Position numbers and translations under genes: made by a program
The notes under the pieces: model-generated
What the model saw: only the letters and a program-made list of their open reading frames with translations
The model's database searches: none
Told to the model about the DNA's origin: nothing
Shown: in pieces, positions 8,796-18,073 of the stretch
Layout of the letters: each line of letters starts with the position of its first letter
Position numbering within the stretch: the first letter of the stretch is position 1
Assembly: GCA_030600545.1 (NCBI GenBank)
Contig: JAUVLV010000006.1
Span: forward strand, 1-64,000
DNA from: Candidatus Aegiribacteria sp.
Lineage (GTDB): Bacteria; Fermentibacterota; Fermentibacteria; Fermentibacterales; JCC-6
Direction: 5' to 3'
DNA length: 64,000 nucleotides

Positions 8796-9342
8796 CCGGA
8801 AAAAAGCCCTTGAATTACTTGAAGAGAATCTCAGCAACAGGAACCTCATACGTCACTGCCTGGCGTCCGAAGCCGTTATGCGCAGGCTTGCGGAGGACAG
8901 GGGAGAGGATCAGGATATCTGGGGTACTACCGGTCTTCTGCATGACCTTGACTACGAAAAAACCGCTGATAACCCCGCTAAACACGGTCTTGTTACCGCT
9001 GAAATGCTTGAGGGGCAGCTCCCGGAAGAATCGATAAATGCTATAAAAGCACATAATTATGAGAATAACGGTATCGAGAGAGTTTCTAATCTGGATTATC
9101 TTCTCGCCGCAGGAGAGTCAATAACCGGTCTGATAGTTGCAGTTGCCCTGGTTTACCCCGGGAAGAAACTTCAGCCTGTAAAATTGAAATCAGTTACAAA
9201 GAGAATGAAAATGGCCGCCTTCGCCCGATCGGTTCCCAGAGAAACCATCAAAGATTGCTCCAGGGCCGGATACGAACTGAACGAATTTATTCGCCTTTCC
9301 CTTGAAGCAATGAAGGGGATAGCTTCGGAAATAGGCCTTTAA
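8779..9342 (+). CDS. HD domain-containing protein
   Basis: LIRHCLASEAVMRRLAEDRGEDQDIWGTTGLLHDLDYEKTADNPAKHG; GTG start overlaps nnr. Confidence 0.85.
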   Translation: MSTLISRKKALELLEENLSNRNLIRHCLASEAVMRRLAEDRGEDQDIWGTTGLLHDLDYEKTADNPAKHGLVTAEMLEGQLPEESINAIKAHNYENNGIERVSNLDYLLAAGESITGLIVAVALVYPGKKLQPVKLKSVTKRMKMAAFARSVPRETIKDCSRAGYELNEFIRLSLEAMKGIASEIGL

Positions 9343-9460
9343 CGACAAACGTCCTGTAACTGCTGTTTGAATTCCTCTAATTTCATCTGTTCCATATCAA
9401 CATCCCAGTAAATGTAACTGCACCATATCAGCGTTACAACAGTAATAGTGTACATATTCT

Positions 9461-9507
9461 TGTCAAGTCACATCGTCTTGACAGTTAAATAGCTTAATTA
9501 ATATGAT
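9461..9507 (+). promoter_or_regulatory. Sigma70-like promoter with inverted-repeat operator candidate upstream of the ORF6N gene
   Basis: TTGACA (9478-9483), 18 nt, TATGAT (9502-9507); tgtcaag (9461-9467) / cttgaca (9477-9483) inverted repeat overlaps the -35. Confidence 0.5.
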
Positions 9508-9592
9508 ATTGCTTAGTAGGTACATTATGCAAGCATCGAGATATGTTGCAGTTACATAATCATTGTTCTCCGATAGAGCAGAAAGGAAATAA

Positions 9593-10132
9593 TTGCCTGA
9601 AAAATCAAAGGATCTCACAGAACATCGTATTATCTCAAGCATCTTAATCGTTCGGGATACGAAAGTTATTCTTGATTCTGATCTTGCTAAACTGTATGGA
9701 GTTGAAACTCGCCGTTTAAATGAGCAAGTTCGGCGTAATCTTTCCAAATTCCCAGATGACTTTATCTTTCAATTGTCCAAAGAGGAATTCGAAATCTTGA
9801 AGTCGCAAATTGCGACATCAAGTTCCAGCTGGGGTGGACGCAGAAAACCACCAATTGTCTTTACTGAGTATGGCGCATTACAGGCTGCAAATTTGCTGAG
9901 CTCAGAACAGGCAAACAGAATGAGCGTTTTCATTATACGAGCATTTATCAAACTGCGCGAAATGGCATTCACAAACGAAATACTATCCCGGAAATTCGAG
10001 CAATTGGAAAAACAAGTCACTGAACATGATGAAATCTTGATAAAATTAGTTCAAGAAATTAGAAAACTGATAGATCCACCCAAGACTTCAGCAAAGAAAG
10101 CGATAGGTTTTAGAAGTCCCGATAAGAAGTAA
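9593..10132 (+). CDS. ORF6N domain (phage/mobile-element type DNA-binding) protein, TTG start
   Basis: ILIVRDTKVILDSDLAKLYGVETRRLNEQVRRNLSKFPDDFIFQLSKEEFE...VFTEYGALQAANLL. Confidence 0.88.
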   Translation: MPEKSKDLTEHRIISSILIVRDTKVILDSDLAKLYGVETRRLNEQVRRNLSKFPDDFIFQLSKEEFEILKSQIATSSSSWGGRRKPPIVFTEYGALQAANLLSSEQANRMSVFIIRAFIKLREMAFTNEILSRKFEQLEKQVTEHDEILIKLVQEIRKLIDPPKTSAKKAIGFRSPDKK

Positions 10133-10143
10133 TAATATGCGGA

Positions 10144-10222
10144 GAACAAATGCATGAACCAGTCACAAATGCAAAGCTATGACCCAGAGTAATATCTGTG
10201 CTGGTTATGCAGAGCGTTAGAG
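10144..10222 (+). other. Candidate integron attC recombination site #1
   Basis: aac(10145-47)/gtt(10216-18); spacer aaa/gagc; L-stem tgcat[g]aaccag[t]caca (10151-10167) pairs with tgtgctggttatgca (10197-10211), 15 bp with two single-base extras on the left arm. Confidence 0.6.
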
Positions 10223-10267
10223 AGTGAAAATAGCTTACACCGATAACGAAGTGGAAGAAAGGAAATA

Positions 10268-11557
10268 ATGAAACAGGAAATTCTTAATCTAAGTATTTCT
10301 TTCTCCCTTCTGTTTTTCTCAATATGCAATACCTTTGCTGAACCAATCCCTGAAGTATCTGTAACGGGTTCTTCTGCTCCAGAAGCTCATGAAATCTTCT
10401 CTATTGAAACATCTGAGGATCTTGAATCAATTCTAACTGACGGCTACCCTTTGCCATGGGTTGCTGAAATCCTTGAAGACGAAACTATTCCAGAGAAAGA
10501 CAGATATTGGCTTGACTGTCGGATAAGAGCAATCATTGCCCAGGATTTGCATACTTTCTTCAACAGAGAGGGAGAACCGGTTCAAGTAGATGCTGATTGG
10601 ATAAGGTATGGTGAGGATTACTGGCAGGAACACTTCATCGTCAATCCGCCAGGAGAGTTTCCTATGGGAGAGTATAACCAGATTTCACTTACATTTGACA
10701 CAGAGCCAGATCCAGTAACTGGATTATGGGGAGAGAATGGGTTTGCTTACAATCGATTTGGAGAGAAAACTGGTGAGTTTGCTCTTTGCAACACATCCTT
10801 ACAGCTCTCAAGAGATGGTTCTATTGGCTTAGTGCTTGCTAGAGGTTCACAGAGAGTAACTGAATATGGTCCAGTTTATCTCTATTTTGTCCATAGCGAT
10901 GGAACTTTTTACAAAAATCCTGAAGAACTCTGGATTTACGACTATTCTCTTAGCAAAAGTGGTGAATTCGCTTTACTAGTTCAAAGAAAAGAAAATGAGC
11001 CAGACTCGATTGAAATGTTTGACAGAAGAGGGAATCTGATTTGGGAGCAGGAAGTAACGGCAACAATGTATCAGCGAATATCAATCTCACCAAACAACGA
11101 ATTGTGCTTGATTCCATCAAGTCAGCGAAATCCAATCAATCACTATATCCAAGTTCTTAATACCGCTGATGGTAGTGAACTGGAGGTATACAATGAATAT
11201 CCGATTTTCTCTCCTGATGGAGAAATAGTATGCATTGGATCAACAGTATGTGTATCCTCCGACAATCTTACTGAAATATGTTCTATCGGAAATCCAGATG
11301 AGAGTTTGTCTACTTATGACTTAAGCATTGATAACAACGCAAATCTTTTTGCTGGAATACTACATCCACCAGAAGCCTTGATTTCAGAAGAAACAAAACT
11401 AGCAGTATGGTCTCAAAATGGCTTGATAATACTGGAGCAACCTTTCGTTCGGAACGAGAATATCGTTCTTTCTCCAAACGGAGCATTCGCTATGGTCTTC
11501 TCAGAATACAGCAATACCTCTTCAACTTCATGCACGATTTGGAGGATTGATTTTTGA
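10268..11557 (+). CDS. Secreted protein with repeated propeller-like segments, function unknown
   Basis: N-terminal signal peptide (LNLSISFSLLFFSICNTFAEPIPE); repeated LSRDGSIGLVLA / SLSKSGEFALLV / SISPNNELCLIP / IFSPDGEIVCIG segments. Confidence 0.6.
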   Translation: MKQEILNLSISFSLLFFSICNTFAEPIPEVSVTGSSAPEAHEIFSIETSEDLESILTDGYPLPWVAEILEDETIPEKDRYWLDCRIRAIIAQDLHTFFNREGEPVQVDADWIRYGEDYWQEHFIVNPPGEFPMGEYNQISLTFDTEPDPVTGLWGENGFAYNRFGEKTGEFALCNTSLQLSRDGSIGLVLARGSQRVTEYGPVYLYFVHSDGTFYKNPEELWIYDYSLSKSGEFALLVQRKENEPDSIEMFDRRGNLIWEQEVTATMYQRISISPNNELCLIPSSQRNPINHYIQVLNTADGSELEVYNEYPIFSPDGEIVCIGSTVCVSSDNLTEICSIGNPDESLSTYDLSIDNNANLFAGILHPPEALISEETKLAVWSQNGLIILEQPFVRNENIVLSPNGAFAMVFSEYSNTSSTSCTIWRIDF

Positions 11558-11649
11558 AGGTGCTAAATAGCGTACCAGCCCGCTGCGCGCGCCCACATCT
11601 AAAAGTAAATTTAAGTTACTTGAAAGATTTGAATTATGAGAATTAATCT

Positions 11650-11730
11650 CTAACAACCAAATTCAACAGAACTGCGGCTATGTTCTCCCAAAGTTATGTT
11701 ATTGCAGTCAGCTGATTTGGAGCGTTATGG
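11650..11730 (+). other. Candidate integron attC recombination site #2
   Basis: taac(11651-54)/gtta(11724-27); spacer aa/agc; ccaaat[t]ca (11657-65) pairs with tgatttgg (11713-20); inner [a]actgc (11671-75) pairs with gcagt (11704-08); left arm carries the extra bases; ends GAGCGTTATGG. Confidence 0.6.
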
Positions 11731-11746
11731 CTAAAAAAGGAGGACA

Positions 11747-13498
11747 GTGATGCTAGTATTTGTTTCATTGGTTATTTCTCTGGTCTCTGCAACGAGTGTT
11801 TCAATAACAGAACCGATTGATGGGGAAACCTACGATGGCGACTGGCTGACCGTTCGTGCAATTGTGGAGAATGAGAACGAAACTCCAGACTCAGTTCATT
11901 ACAGTCTAAACGGCCTATCCGTTATTCAGATCCCCAGGCTGGACACTGATTGGCCAACTTACATGCAGAATTACCAGAGGCATGGATACTCCGAATCACC
12001 GGCACCACATACATCAGATATTCTGTGGACTGCTCCGGTCTGCGGAGATTATCATGAATTCCCAACTCCTGCGGTTGTGGATGGGACGGTATACTATCCA
12101 CAGGACGGTGTTGGAGCGGGAGATACTCTCTTTGCTCTCGATTCAGCAACAGGTTCGATAAAGTGGTCCTACCCGGTGGGATATACTGATGACACGGTTA
12201 CACTCAAGAACGGTCTGCTTTATTCTGCATCGGATTCTCTTTTCTGCCTGGATGCAGGGACCGGAGCAAGGGTATGGGCATGGGGAGATGAAGCTGATTT
12301 CCACCAGACCGGCAGCCCTATCGTGACCAATGGTGTTGTGTATTTTGCCACTAGCCATGATTATGACACTTCAAGAGTATATGCAGCAGACGCAGCATCG
12401 GGTCTGATCATCTGGGAGACCGGGTTCTCAGGTGCGCTTGAGACCAGTCTTGCATATTTCGATAATACCATATACATAGCTCTGTTTACAGATTTTATGG
12501 ATTACGACGATCATGAGTCTTTGTTCGCTCTTGATGCCTCGTCCGGTTCCATTCTATGGTCTAACGACCATACCGATGGAGGATACTGGGACTCGTCTCC
12601 GAACATCTATGAAGGGATGCTGTACATCGATGGATGGGATGGTTGCCTGCACGCTTTCGATGCAGAGAATGGTGTTCTCGCATGGGAAACAGTATTACAT
12701 CCCGCCTCCTATCTATTCGGTGTCGAACCAACACCCGCGATACATGATGATCTACTGTTTATCGGTTGCTGTTTCTACGGATGCGGAACGCCTTTCGGTT
12801 ATGTAGGAGCTCACTCCACGACAACTGGTTCGGAAGTATGGAGTATTGTTGATAGGATAGAGCTCCATGGCTCGTTCGGCCTGGCAGAAGATCTCGCATT
12901 CATAGGATCATTCACAAAAGACAGTATATTCGCATTCGATCAGTCAACCGGTGAGATCGAATGGGTTTATGGATTCCAGGGAACCAGGTATGATGGTTGT
13001 CAATCAAGCCCTTCCATAACAGATGGTGTCATGTATATCGCTGCAACTGACGGTAATCTTTACGCATTCGGCACAGGTCTCAAATTCACCTACCTTGATG
13101 ATCTTTTCGCTGGAGTAGGAGCCAATGAATTGATAGCAACTTCCTTTTATGAAGGAGTTGCTATGGCAGTTGATACGATCAACTTCACCGTGACTGGTAC
13201 TGGAATCGAACTTGATCCATTTCGCATGCTTCAGATCAGCGTAAGCCCTAATCCTTTCCATTCAACCGCAAGCATCTCGTTCGAGCTTGCAGAGCCTGGA
13301 TGGACGATGGTGTCCGTGTACGACCTCTCGGGTAGGACCGTCAGAACACTAGAGAATTCAGAACTCGGAGCCGGTCAGCACTCAGTAGCCTGGGATGGAA
13401 CAGGTGAAAACGGTGAGATTCTTGCAACAGGTGTCTATATCTGCAGAATACAATCCGGAGGATTTTCTAAAACCACAGGTCTGTGTCTGTTGAGATAG
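11747..13498 (+). CDS. Secreted PQQ-like beta-propeller protein with C-terminal FlgD/T9SS-like sorting domain
   Basis: Repeated LFALDSATGSIKWSYPV / LDAGTGARVWAW / DAASGLIIWET blades; C-term ISVSPNPFHSTASISFEL..VYDLSGRTVRTL..GVYICRIQ. Confidence 0.88.
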   Translation: MMLVFVSLVISLVSATSVSITEPIDGETYDGDWLTVRAIVENENETPDSVHYSLNGLSVIQIPRLDTDWPTYMQNYQRHGYSESPAPHTSDILWTAPVCGDYHEFPTPAVVDGTVYYPQDGVGAGDTLFALDSATGSIKWSYPVGYTDDTVTLKNGLLYSASDSLFCLDAGTGARVWAWGDEADFHQTGSPIVTNGVVYFATSHDYDTSRVYAADAASGLIIWETGFSGALETSLAYFDNTIYIALFTDFMDYDDHESLFALDASSGSILWSNDHTDGGYWDSSPNIYEGMLYIDGWDGCLHAFDAENGVLAWETVLHPASYLFGVEPTPAIHDDLLFIGCCFYGCGTPFGYVGAHSTTTGSEVWSIVDRIELHGSFGLAEDLAFIGSFTKDSIFAFDQSTGEIEWVYGFQGTRYDGCQSSPSITDGVMYIAATDGNLYAFGTGLKFTYLDDLFAGVGANELIATSFYEGVAMAVDTINFTVTGTGIELDPFRMLQISVSPNPFHSTASISFELAEPGWTMVSVYDLSGRTVRTLENSELGAGQHSVAWDGTGENGEILATGVYICRIQSGGFSKTTGLCLLR

Positions 13499-13501
13499 GA
13501 A

Positions 13502-13581
13502 CCATAACCAGAGGCTGCAGTGGAATACTACTCGCTGAATCCAATTCCTTGTAGGACTATCCACTGAGCCTATTGTTTGGT
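13502..13581 (+). other. Candidate integron attC recombination site #3
   Basis: aac(13506-08)/gtt(13575-77); L-stem aggct[g]cagtgga (13512-24) pairs with tccactgagcct (13560-71), 12 bp with one extra G on the left arm, then [a]ta/ta; starts 4 nt after the PQQ gene stop. Confidence 0.6.
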
Positions 13582-14184
13582 ACAAGACATATGAATGGAA
13601 ACAAACGACGGTACACCGTTCGCCAAGCTACGGAAGCAGATTTACCCGTCCTTGCGGACATCAAGTCACCAATGGCCATCCACAAAGACCGCCTTCTGGA
13701 TGCGGACAGCGAGAAAATGCTCTACATGATTATTGAGGAATTCGGTACTGTTATTGGATTCGGACTTCTCGTTTTCAAGCGTCCACCCACTTGGCCTGAC
13801 GCTAACGACAGCTCCCATCTCCCGGCGATGGTCGACTTGCTTGTCAGCCCGGACCGTCGGAGTCGTGGTGCGGGATCATTCCTCATCAGTTGGATGGAGG
13901 AAACCATACGCTCCAGAGGAGGTAACCATTTGTACATGTGCGTGGACCCGGTCGATAATCCAAGAGCCCATCAACTCTACCTGCGTCTGGGATACTCAAC
14001 TCTCCAGACACAGCCATACAGGTCACATTGGAAGTTCGCGGATTCTGACGGAAACGTGCACGAAGGAAACGTATGGAACATTGATATGGTGAAGGATCTA
14101 AGTCAGAAAACACGGGGGTCACCCAACACTTATGAGGCCACCCTCTGTCAAGGGGCAAAGTTCGTCACTGACAGCATGTGCTAA
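13573..14184 (+). CDS. GNAT family N-acetyltransferase (start could be ATG at 13591)
   Basis: YTVRQATEADLPVLADIKS..AMVDLLVSPDRRSRGAGSFLISWMEETIRSRGGNHLYMCVDPVDNPRAHQLYLRLGY. Confidence 0.85.
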   Translation: MFGTRHMNGNKRRYTVRQATEADLPVLADIKSPMAIHKDRLLDADSEKMLYMIIEEFGTVIGFGLLVFKRPPTWPDANDSSHLPAMVDLLVSPDRRSRGAGSFLISWMEETIRSRGGNHLYMCVDPVDNPRAHQLYLRLGYSTLQTQPYRSHWKFADSDGNVHEGNVWNIDMVKDLSQKTRGSPNTYEATLCQGAKFVTDSMC

Positions 14185-14394
14185 CTGTTTTCATTTATCG
14201 TCTTGTATTCAGTCTTCGCGTTCTGTCTTAGTTTCAATATCAGGTTCTGCGCCAAACACTTATCGAGGATCTGCGGCTCATCCTTGATGAACCGGGAAGG
14301 ATTCTTCCTTCTCGTCCTAGAAACACATACGTTCCCTCATGCCGTCCCATTCACAACGTCGGGCTGAATGCCGTAGCATTCACCAGTTAGCTCC
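14180..14394 (+). other. Weak fourth attC-like candidate (boundaries ambiguous)
   Basis: GCTAACTG (14180-87, over the GNAT stop) inverted to CAGTTAGC (14384-91); alternatively the compact fold aac-gtcg-gg[c]tgaatgc-cgta-gcattcacc-a-gtt (14355-14388). Confidence 0.3.
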
Positions 14395-14607
14395 GGGTTC
14401 GGGGGAGGAGCAGAACACTTCATCGAATACTTATCATTTCTGCGGGAGCGAAGCGACCATCCAATCAAAGCGTATGTTTACCTGGAATGCGCTGAGGTAC
14501 CTTCATCCTGGTCAAGGCCAGATTCTCTCGAAGTTTCTCTTCGAGGGTACTCATCCAGCTTCTTCCTTTCGGTCACAGTTAGCTGTTCGGCTTGGCCGCT
14601 CCCTCCC

Positions 14608-15654
14608 TTATACTCTGAGGAATTTTTTCATATCGAATGCCTTCTCGCGCTTTAGCATATAGTAGACCGTTCTTCCAAGCTTGTGGGCAAGGATGAAAAG
14701 AGACTTGGCTTTGCCATGTTTTCTCTCCAGCCGCTTCTTGTACTTCATCCCTTCCGAATTTCCACGCAGGAACAGTACAGCAGCTTCGGAGAACGTCCAC
14801 TTCAGATGAACATTCCCGATCTTGCTTCCGGAAGTTCCATATCGTTTTCCGGCGGATTCTCTGGCACATTTCACCAGCCTGCTGTATGAAGCAAAGTTCT
14901 GCACCCTCGGGAAGCGGTTAATGTCTCCTATCTCGTAGAGAATCGTCAGAGACAAGATTTTCCCGATTCCATAAATGGTTCGGAGCAGGTGAAGTGACTG
15001 TGGATCATGGTTCTTTGCATTGCTCAGAACATGCTTTTTCATGGCTCTGATCTGAACTGCAAATTGGTCTATCATATCCATATTGGTCTTCATACTCATG
15101 TATACATTCGGATCGGTGAAGTGACTCAGAACCTCTTCACGGCGACATTTGTGAGTGATATTGGAAGTGCCGAAGAGAGGCTGATTGTACTGGCTGTTCG
15201 TGTTCTGAACATGGGTGATAAGATCAGCCCTCTTCCGAACCAGGTAATTTCTTCTTCTCAGAAGATCTCTCGTTGCCCTCATCTTCGCAGGATAGACATA
15301 GGCCATGGGGAACATTCCGCCTTTGAGCATGACAGCTATCTTTCCCGAATCTATCCTGTCGTTCTTGGCTTTTCCGCCATGGATGGCTTTCATGTACAAG
15401 GCATGACCAAGAGTGAAAGGTATTCCTTCCTCTGCACATAGATCCGCCACCCAGTACCAGGTGAAGATGCATTCCACTCCGATGACTATATCCGGTCTGT
15501 ATGGTTCGATAGCTTTGAGAAGGGATTCCGGATCAGCTTTCATGTTCCGGTGAAGAACGATTTCACCATCTGAACTGATGATGCAGAGATACATCACCCT
15601 GGCGTGTAGGTCGATGCCGCAGTAATATTGGTGTGTGGTAGTATAGAATCTCAT
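14608..15654 (-). mobile_element. IS110-family transposase (DEDD RuvC-like N-terminus + Transposase_20 C-terminus)
   Basis: YYCGIDLHARVMYLCIISSDGEIVLHRN; IGVECIFTWYWVADLC; HALYMKAIHGGKAKNDRIDSGKIA; LLRTIYGIGKILSLTILYEIGDINRFP; ASYSRLV; KIGNVHLKWTFSEAA. Confidence 0.95.
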
Positions 15655-15687
15655 TGGGTCTCCTCCTTGTTAGGGAAAAAGTTATCA

Positions 15688-15718
15688 CCCTCAGCATACC
15701 AGAATGGCATGCCGAGGG
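15688..15718 (-). ncRNA. Hairpin upstream of the IS110 transposase (possible part of the guide/bridge RNA or IS end)
   Basis: 13 bp stem ccctcagcatacc/ggcatgccgaggg with 5 nt loop; fully paired, using two G-U wobbles, only if transcribed from the minus strand (transposase sense). Confidence 0.35.
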
Positions 15719-15728
15719 GGAGGCCTCA

Positions 15729-16100
15729 ATGAGTATCAGAGGAATCTGGTTCACTCCTGATCATTGTGAAACATATACTCAATTAGGAGGTGCTTCAGGG
15801 ATTCCTGACAGGAATATTTTCCAGAATATTGTTAGTGGTGCAGTTGATATTGCTATAGCACCTTTTTCGGCCTTTCAGGATTATCTGATAGAGATTCAGC
15901 AGGTATCTATTCCGTTTCATATGAAATCTTCAGGCAGAATCCCAGAACTCTTGAATATCTTGCAGCAGCACCAGCAGATACCGGTAATTTCGGAGAAAGA
16001 TTCCTTATGGGGATGTGTGATGAGCTTCCTAATGGAAATTCGCCTTGATACCGGGCAATATTCCCTGAATCGAATTCCGCTATTAAGGTTTGATCAATGA
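15729..16100 (+). CDS. Orphan short ORF, function unknown (ATG with GGGGGAGG RBS-like sequence)
   Basis: MSIRGIWFTPDHCETYTQLGGASGIPDRNIFQNIVSGAVDIAIAPFSAFQDYLIEIQ...; the longer ORF 15654-16100 runs into the IS 5' region. Confidence 0.35.
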   Translation: MSIRGIWFTPDHCETYTQLGGASGIPDRNIFQNIVSGAVDIAIAPFSAFQDYLIEIQQVSIPFHMKSSGRIPELLNILQQHQQIPVISEKDSLWGCVMSFLMEIRLDTGQYSLNRIPLLRFDQ

Positions 16101-16242
16101 CTCAGTCATGGTCGAAAAGTATACTTCCAGGTTTTCTCGATCGGAACCTGATGGTTACTTTTTCTTCTGCTTCGCCTGTTTCCTGGCGAGGCTGATAACA
16201 GTTCTCGCTGCAGCGATTCTTATCTCCCTGGAATCGTTCCTG
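16091..16242. repeat. Direct repeat copy A: 3' end + 3' UTR of the GGDEF-HEAT gene (see 17922-18073)
   Basis: About 142/152 identical to 17922-18073; minus-strand translation RNDSREIRIAAARTVISLARKQAKQKKK*. Confidence 0.92.
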
Positions 16243-17921: not shown

Positions 17922-18073
17922 TGATTAATGACTCAGTCATGGTCGAAAAGTGTACTTCCAGGTTTTCTCGATCGGAACCTGATGGTTACTTTTTCTTCTG
18001 CTTCGCCTGTTTCCTTGCGAGGCTGATGACTGTTCTGGCTGCTGCGATCCTTACCTCCCTGGAATCGTGCCTG
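17922..18073. repeat. Direct repeat copy B: native 3' end + 3' UTR of the GGDEF-HEAT gene
   Basis: Matches 16091-16242; contains atgactcagtcat palindrome and caggtt..aacctg hairpin beyond the stop codon. Confidence 0.92.

Follow-up and report, generated by a model that had tools for sequence, protein, structure and literature searches.

A probable decayed chromosomal integron with a retained attI-type leader in Candidatus Fermentibacterota

We analyzed a window of 64,000 nucleotides, i.e., the whole stretch of DNA considered here, on contig C47 of a 2.29 Mb MAG (G000; 74 contigs, 73% complete) from the phylum Candidatus Fermentibacterota, and compared 42 genomes of this phylum, namely G000 and 41 relatives. 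The assignment to this phylum follows from matches to named genomes, with 84% identity to Ca. Aegiribacteria and 78% to Ca. Fermentibacteria. Four co-oriented open reading frames (starting at 9593, 10268, 11747, and 13573) and three structured gaps were present at the coordinates given in the preliminary description. On the forward strand, the first gene (9593–10132) encodes an ORF6N domain (Pfam PF10543, E 1.7e-30), the second (10268–11557) carries a putative signal peptide with only a sub-threshold Pfam match (DUF5711) and has homologs in the phylum at ≤58%, the third (11747–13498) encodes a PQQ-like beta-propeller (PF13360) with a T9SS-type sorting domain over cut-off (TIGR04183), and the fourth, within what we call cassette 4, encodes a GNAT protein (PF00583). 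The last ~20 residues of this GNAT reading frame are IS sequence, and no GNAT homolog was found in the other genomes at E 1e-15.

The three gaps share one layout: on the left side, AAC is followed by 2–3 nt, a 5–6 bp helix, an unpaired base, and a second helix, after which come a second unpaired base 7–8 nt on, further pairing, a loop, the right arm, 3–4 nt, and GTT. The unpaired bases of the left arm are those named earlier (10156 G/10163 T, 11663 T/11670 A, and 13517 G/13525 A), and the first of them is the ninth nucleotide after AAC in 3/3 window sites. To identify such structures we used a covariance model, R1, derived from an alignment (A1) of 24 attC sites located beside IntI genes in relatives, with the window sites excluded. 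As anticipated in the preliminary description, R1 matched exactly three sites in the window, all on the forward strand, with no further match at E values of 10 or below: attC 1 (10141–10222; 71.9 bits, E 4e-14), attC 2 (11648–11730; 56.0 bits, E 2e-10), and attC 3 (13502–13581; 30.7 bits, E 1e-4), the last having the lowest R1 score and being dropped by a first-look filter in the whole-genome search. The full-length alignments to R1 display the structural features of attC recombination sites in all three, namely R''/R' arms (AAC...GTT), an unpaired spacer, and L''/L' helices whose extrahelical bases lie on a single arm. Within A1, 12 pairs changed on both sides and the structure was kept in 96% of cells, a figure that is inflated since these sites were picked by a descriptor requiring pairing. 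Applied to plasmid records, R1 recovered accepted class 1 integron attC sites beside aadA2, blaGES, and aac(6')-Il (E 1e-6 to 1e-3), and therefore does not capture a clade-only pattern. The preliminary description had also looked to further attC and intI genes outside the window, and several IntI genes of the same genus indeed have adjoining attC arrays, with individual sites resembling site 1 (L042:5800-5881 and L042:11450-11530), site 2 (L041:118-199), and site 3 (L042:4700-4777).

A geometric attC descriptor applied to the two strands of the window gave 2 matches scoring ≥12, i.e., sites 1 and 3, compared to 0.1 matches scoring ≥15 per simulated Markov window, which exceeds chance; having been written after the window sites were seen, this descriptor is not independent evidence. 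The expectation that the sites would fold better than shuffled sequence held in part: for bottom-strand DNA of sites 1, 2, and 3, z-scores were −1.94, −0.36, and −2.69, and folding energy by itself is weak evidence, site 2 being no better than its shuffles. An Rfam search over the window returned three tRNAs only and no attC match. The identification of the gaps as attC sites rests on the R1 matches, the homologous arrays, and the ends of the cassettes, not on stability. At the first extrahelical base (A1 column 16), the top strand carries G in 15/24 sites, C in 4, T in 3, and A in 2, so that the folded strand would mostly carry C; well-studied attC sites carry G at this position.

If G^TT is the point at which cassettes are joined, the GTTNNNN start of a cassette should be complementary to the NNNNAAC end of the same cassette, and the arms of a site in place, which come from different cassettes, need not pair at their outer bases. 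This is what we observed: the ends are complementary at 7/7 positions for cassette 1 (9566–10216; GTTCTCC/GGAGAAC), cassette 2 (10217–11724; GTTAGAG/CTCTAAC), and cassette 3 (11725–13575; GTTATGG/CCATAAC), all on the forward strand, and across 32 cassettes the four outer bases were fully paired in 29, compared to an average of 1.5/4 for in-place arms. The limits of cassettes 2 and 3 are exactly those inferred by the earlier reader. Cassette 4 (13576–14127, forward strand) is incomplete and consists of the GNAT gene and an R'' half-site, ACCCAAC (14121–14127), which pairs at 6/7 positions with the GTTTGGT of attC 3; the exact complement, ACCAAAC, is absent there, the actual end differing by one mismatch. 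Presence or absence of single cassettes with breakpoints at G^TT, another earlier expectation, was seen for the ORF6N cassette in the sister genome G009, where the same cassette lies between two other attC sites (G009:C16) and where DNA homology to the window sets in precisely at G^TT (9565) and ends within attC. Complementary own ends and the occurrence of one cassette in different contexts are properties of gene cassettes, and the breakpoints at G^TT, where IntI would recombine the folded bottom strand, are visible in the sequence.

Contrary to the earlier proposal, 14394 is not the end of the array: cassette 4 halts at its R'' half-site, where an IS1111/IS110-type element (~14128–15738, reverse strand; PF01548 and PF02371) is inserted directly after AAC. 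The DEDD transposase of this element (14608–15654, reverse strand) is followed downstream by a long non-coding region (14128–14607), which together with subterminal repeat-like ends (TGAGGCC..) fits the IS1111 type. The insertion point appears fixed, as the copies on contigs C3, C4, and C26 of G000 likewise have their left ends after R'' AAC. The right flank is attC sequence for the copies in G000:C3 and G009:C79, and rejoining the flanks in G000:C3 yields an attC-like site. In the window, the left flank is attC while the right flank is not recognisably so, and the join at 15738 could therefore reflect a rearrangement or a misassembly. Some IS1111 members, including ISKpn4 and ISPst6, are known to target one end of attC (PMC11187229); the window element resembles these in its DEDD transposase, its subterminal repeat-like ends, its long non-coding region downstream of tnp, and its several copies at one attC end, but differs in its Fermentibacterota host. 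Further along the window, a 152-bp direct duplication (93% identical; 16091-16242 and 17922-18073) lies around AbiEi/AbiEii-like genes.

Upstream of the array, cassette 1 starts directly after ATAATCATT^GTT, at the end of a 170-bp attI-type leader (9396–9565, forward strand; crossover ATAATCATTG^TT at 9565/9566). This leader recurs in G009, G015, and G000:C51, where the copy is 88% identical, and it aligns with the segment that separates intI from the first cassette in the IntI-bearing integrons of G009, G011, and G013; the window version is without 10 bp inside a conserved TAGTGTACATATGTTTAC box. It includes a promoter-like TTGACA-18-TATGAT (9478–9507, forward strand) facing the cassettes, which has 11/12 consensus matches and is kept in the closest leader copies, although promoter-like sites are no more frequent in the region than expected by chance. 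Judged solely by homology and consensus, the leader is a putative attI with a putative promoter, from which the cassettes may be expressed. Immediately upstream of the leader, ~13 codons on the reverse strand (MEQMKLEEFKQQL; 9357–9395) match DNA in G009:C79 and C63 that runs on into longer, broken IntI reading frames, indicating that intI was lost at the window locus save for these first codons. Elsewhere in the phylum, two loci (L103 and L105, i.e., G022:C142 and G037:C93) carry an attI-core-like GATATGTA.CA.TTACATAATCATT without GTT before a gene that is lexA-like by eye.

In relatives such as G008 and G022, an HD-domain gene is directly followed by iorB, whereas at the orthologous site of G015 the same leader is followed by one different cassette (BrnT toxin, PF04365), an attC, and then iorB. 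At this G015 locus (G015:C11, L091:2471-3340), ATATAGGTCT flanks the leader-cassette insert on either side, like a target duplication. In G000, iorB is found on contig C4, and upstream of it are an attC, a propeller paralog (~50% identical), and an IS copy. Given this neighborhood, C47 and C4 look like the two ends of one array, the break at an IS copy being due either to rearrangement or to assembly.

Taken together, the window locus is very probably a genuine decayed chromosomal integron of Candidatus Fermentibacterota rather than a bare CALIN. The preliminary reading of an integrase-less CALIN was right in that functional intI is missing, only ~13 codons being left, and in that three attC lie 1.5–1.9 kb apart (<4 kb) with no IntI over the cut-off nearby; it overlooked the attI-type leader and the intI stub, which mark the locus as the remnant of a complete integron and not as a free-standing attC cluster. 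We propose that an integron was ancestrally situated between the HD-domain gene and iorB, and that its IntI integrase would have gathered cassettes by joining circular cassettes at the G^TT of attI and attC, the substrate presumably being the folded bottom strand of attC by analogy with known integrons. Loss of intI at the locus down to ~13 codons would later have left attI, the promoter, and at least four cassettes, and the IS1111-type element was inserted into the cassette 4 attC. The remaining cassettes could still be mobile if an integrase acted in trans.

Several other histories could be imagined for such a locus. If the three structures were transcription terminators or chance inverted repeats between ordinary genes, the unexceptional folding energy of site 2 would be expected, but the absence of any terminator-like match at the three sites, the specificity of R1, the matched cassette ends, and the breakpoint at G^TT make this reading almost certainly wrong. 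Alternatively, the cassettes may have been inserted one by one by a remote integrase at a secondary chromosomal site that never had a local integron. Xanthomonas offers described examples of CALINs at secondary loci (PMC12444791), and no full intI is present in the window or was found in G000; yet the array opens at a 170-bp leader that aligns with attI from intact integrons and is preceded by the first codons of intI, which largely refutes an origin de novo and leaves it very improbable. Little probability likewise attaches to the suggestion that living cells carry an intact integron, whose array became separated from the integrase only in the MAG, through assembly breaks or the mixing of strains: while the genome is in 74 contigs, its array apparently split between C47 and C4, and contains many similar IS and attC repeats, the HD gene, the intI stub, and the leader are on one contig with the HD orthologs in order, and the second leader of G000 (C51) is truncated near the same intI codon.

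The occurrence of one leader type at both C47 and C51 of G000, and of the orthologous leader with a different cassette in G015, whose IntI is on another contig, raises another possibility, namely that orphan attI platforms multiply within genomes and are fed cassettes by an IntI at another locus, i.e., one IntI serving several satellite arrays. We consider this scenario rather unlikely. As for a possible source of integrase within G000, no intact IntI was found on its contigs, although in a MAG that is 73% complete such absence is not proof, and the tyrosine recombinases on C59, C45, C58, and C12 were rejected as candidates, all being well below the IntI cut-off. Other attC sites of G000 are on contigs C3, C4, C26, and C57. 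On C26 (L081:7581-8531), a 77-aa IntI C-terminal remnant has a HigBA cassette and an attC as neighbors, and this locus is a second decayed integron of the genome.

As a decayed integron, the window locus is of an already known kind. Loss of intI with retention of cassettes has been described for the sedentary chromosomal integrons of Xanthomonas at the ilvD locus (PMC12444791), and the window shares with these inactivated integrons a chromosomal platform comprising attI, promoter, and cassettes, an intI eroded by deletion, and a cassette content that varies among relatives at the same locus. It differs from them in phylum, in its location between the HD gene and iorB, and in the IntI of its clade, which is ~395 aa long with an N-terminal extension of ~80 aa. 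An origin of CALINs by degradation of integrons has been proposed (PMC9024848); like CALINs, the window holds ≥2 attC without a nearby functional IntI, and unlike them it has kept an attI-type leader plus the first codons of intI, which leave its origin from a complete integron visible. The locus illustrates clearly how a CALIN can arise, through erosion of the integrase gene to a short remnant and persistence of attI and the cassettes.

Integrons are common across this largely uncultured phylum: IntI over the NCBIfam cut-off was detected in 22/42 genomes and attC sites matching R1 in 35/42, with up to 63 scored sites in one. The seven genomes without R1 matches were G001, G002, G003, G005, G006, G010, and G020, four of which are ≥90% complete. 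Integrons nonetheless seem undescribed in the phylum, as our search of the open literature, with subscription papers outside its scope, found no paper linking Fermentibacterota with integrons; as far as could be checked, the system is new for Candidatus Fermentibacterota. Its cargo lies far from the usual setting of resistance genes, with probably exported propeller proteins as a recurring element: the propeller family (window 11747-13498; L167-L226) has ~100 matches in 30/42 genomes, up to 14 per genome, and 14 of the 60 homologs examined have an attC ≤ ~10 nt past their stop codon. ORF6N homologs of G009 and G016 are likewise in cassettes.

In the integrons of G009 and G013, which adjoin lepA, intI and array are divergent. 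The IntI proteins (L042:12651-13835 and others) have ~80 residues ahead of the region with similarity to the IntI model and to plasmid IntI. A tyrosine recombinase beside an attC array in G011:C50, considered as a candidate alternative integron integrase, is ~30% identical to IntI and also occurs next to a normal IntI in G023:C195. The three-attC array at G011:C50 (L092:1052-2660) stops at the start of a BrnT-type cassette and is followed by the 3' part of nnrD, a junction at which either nnrD is disrupted or the assembly is chimeric.
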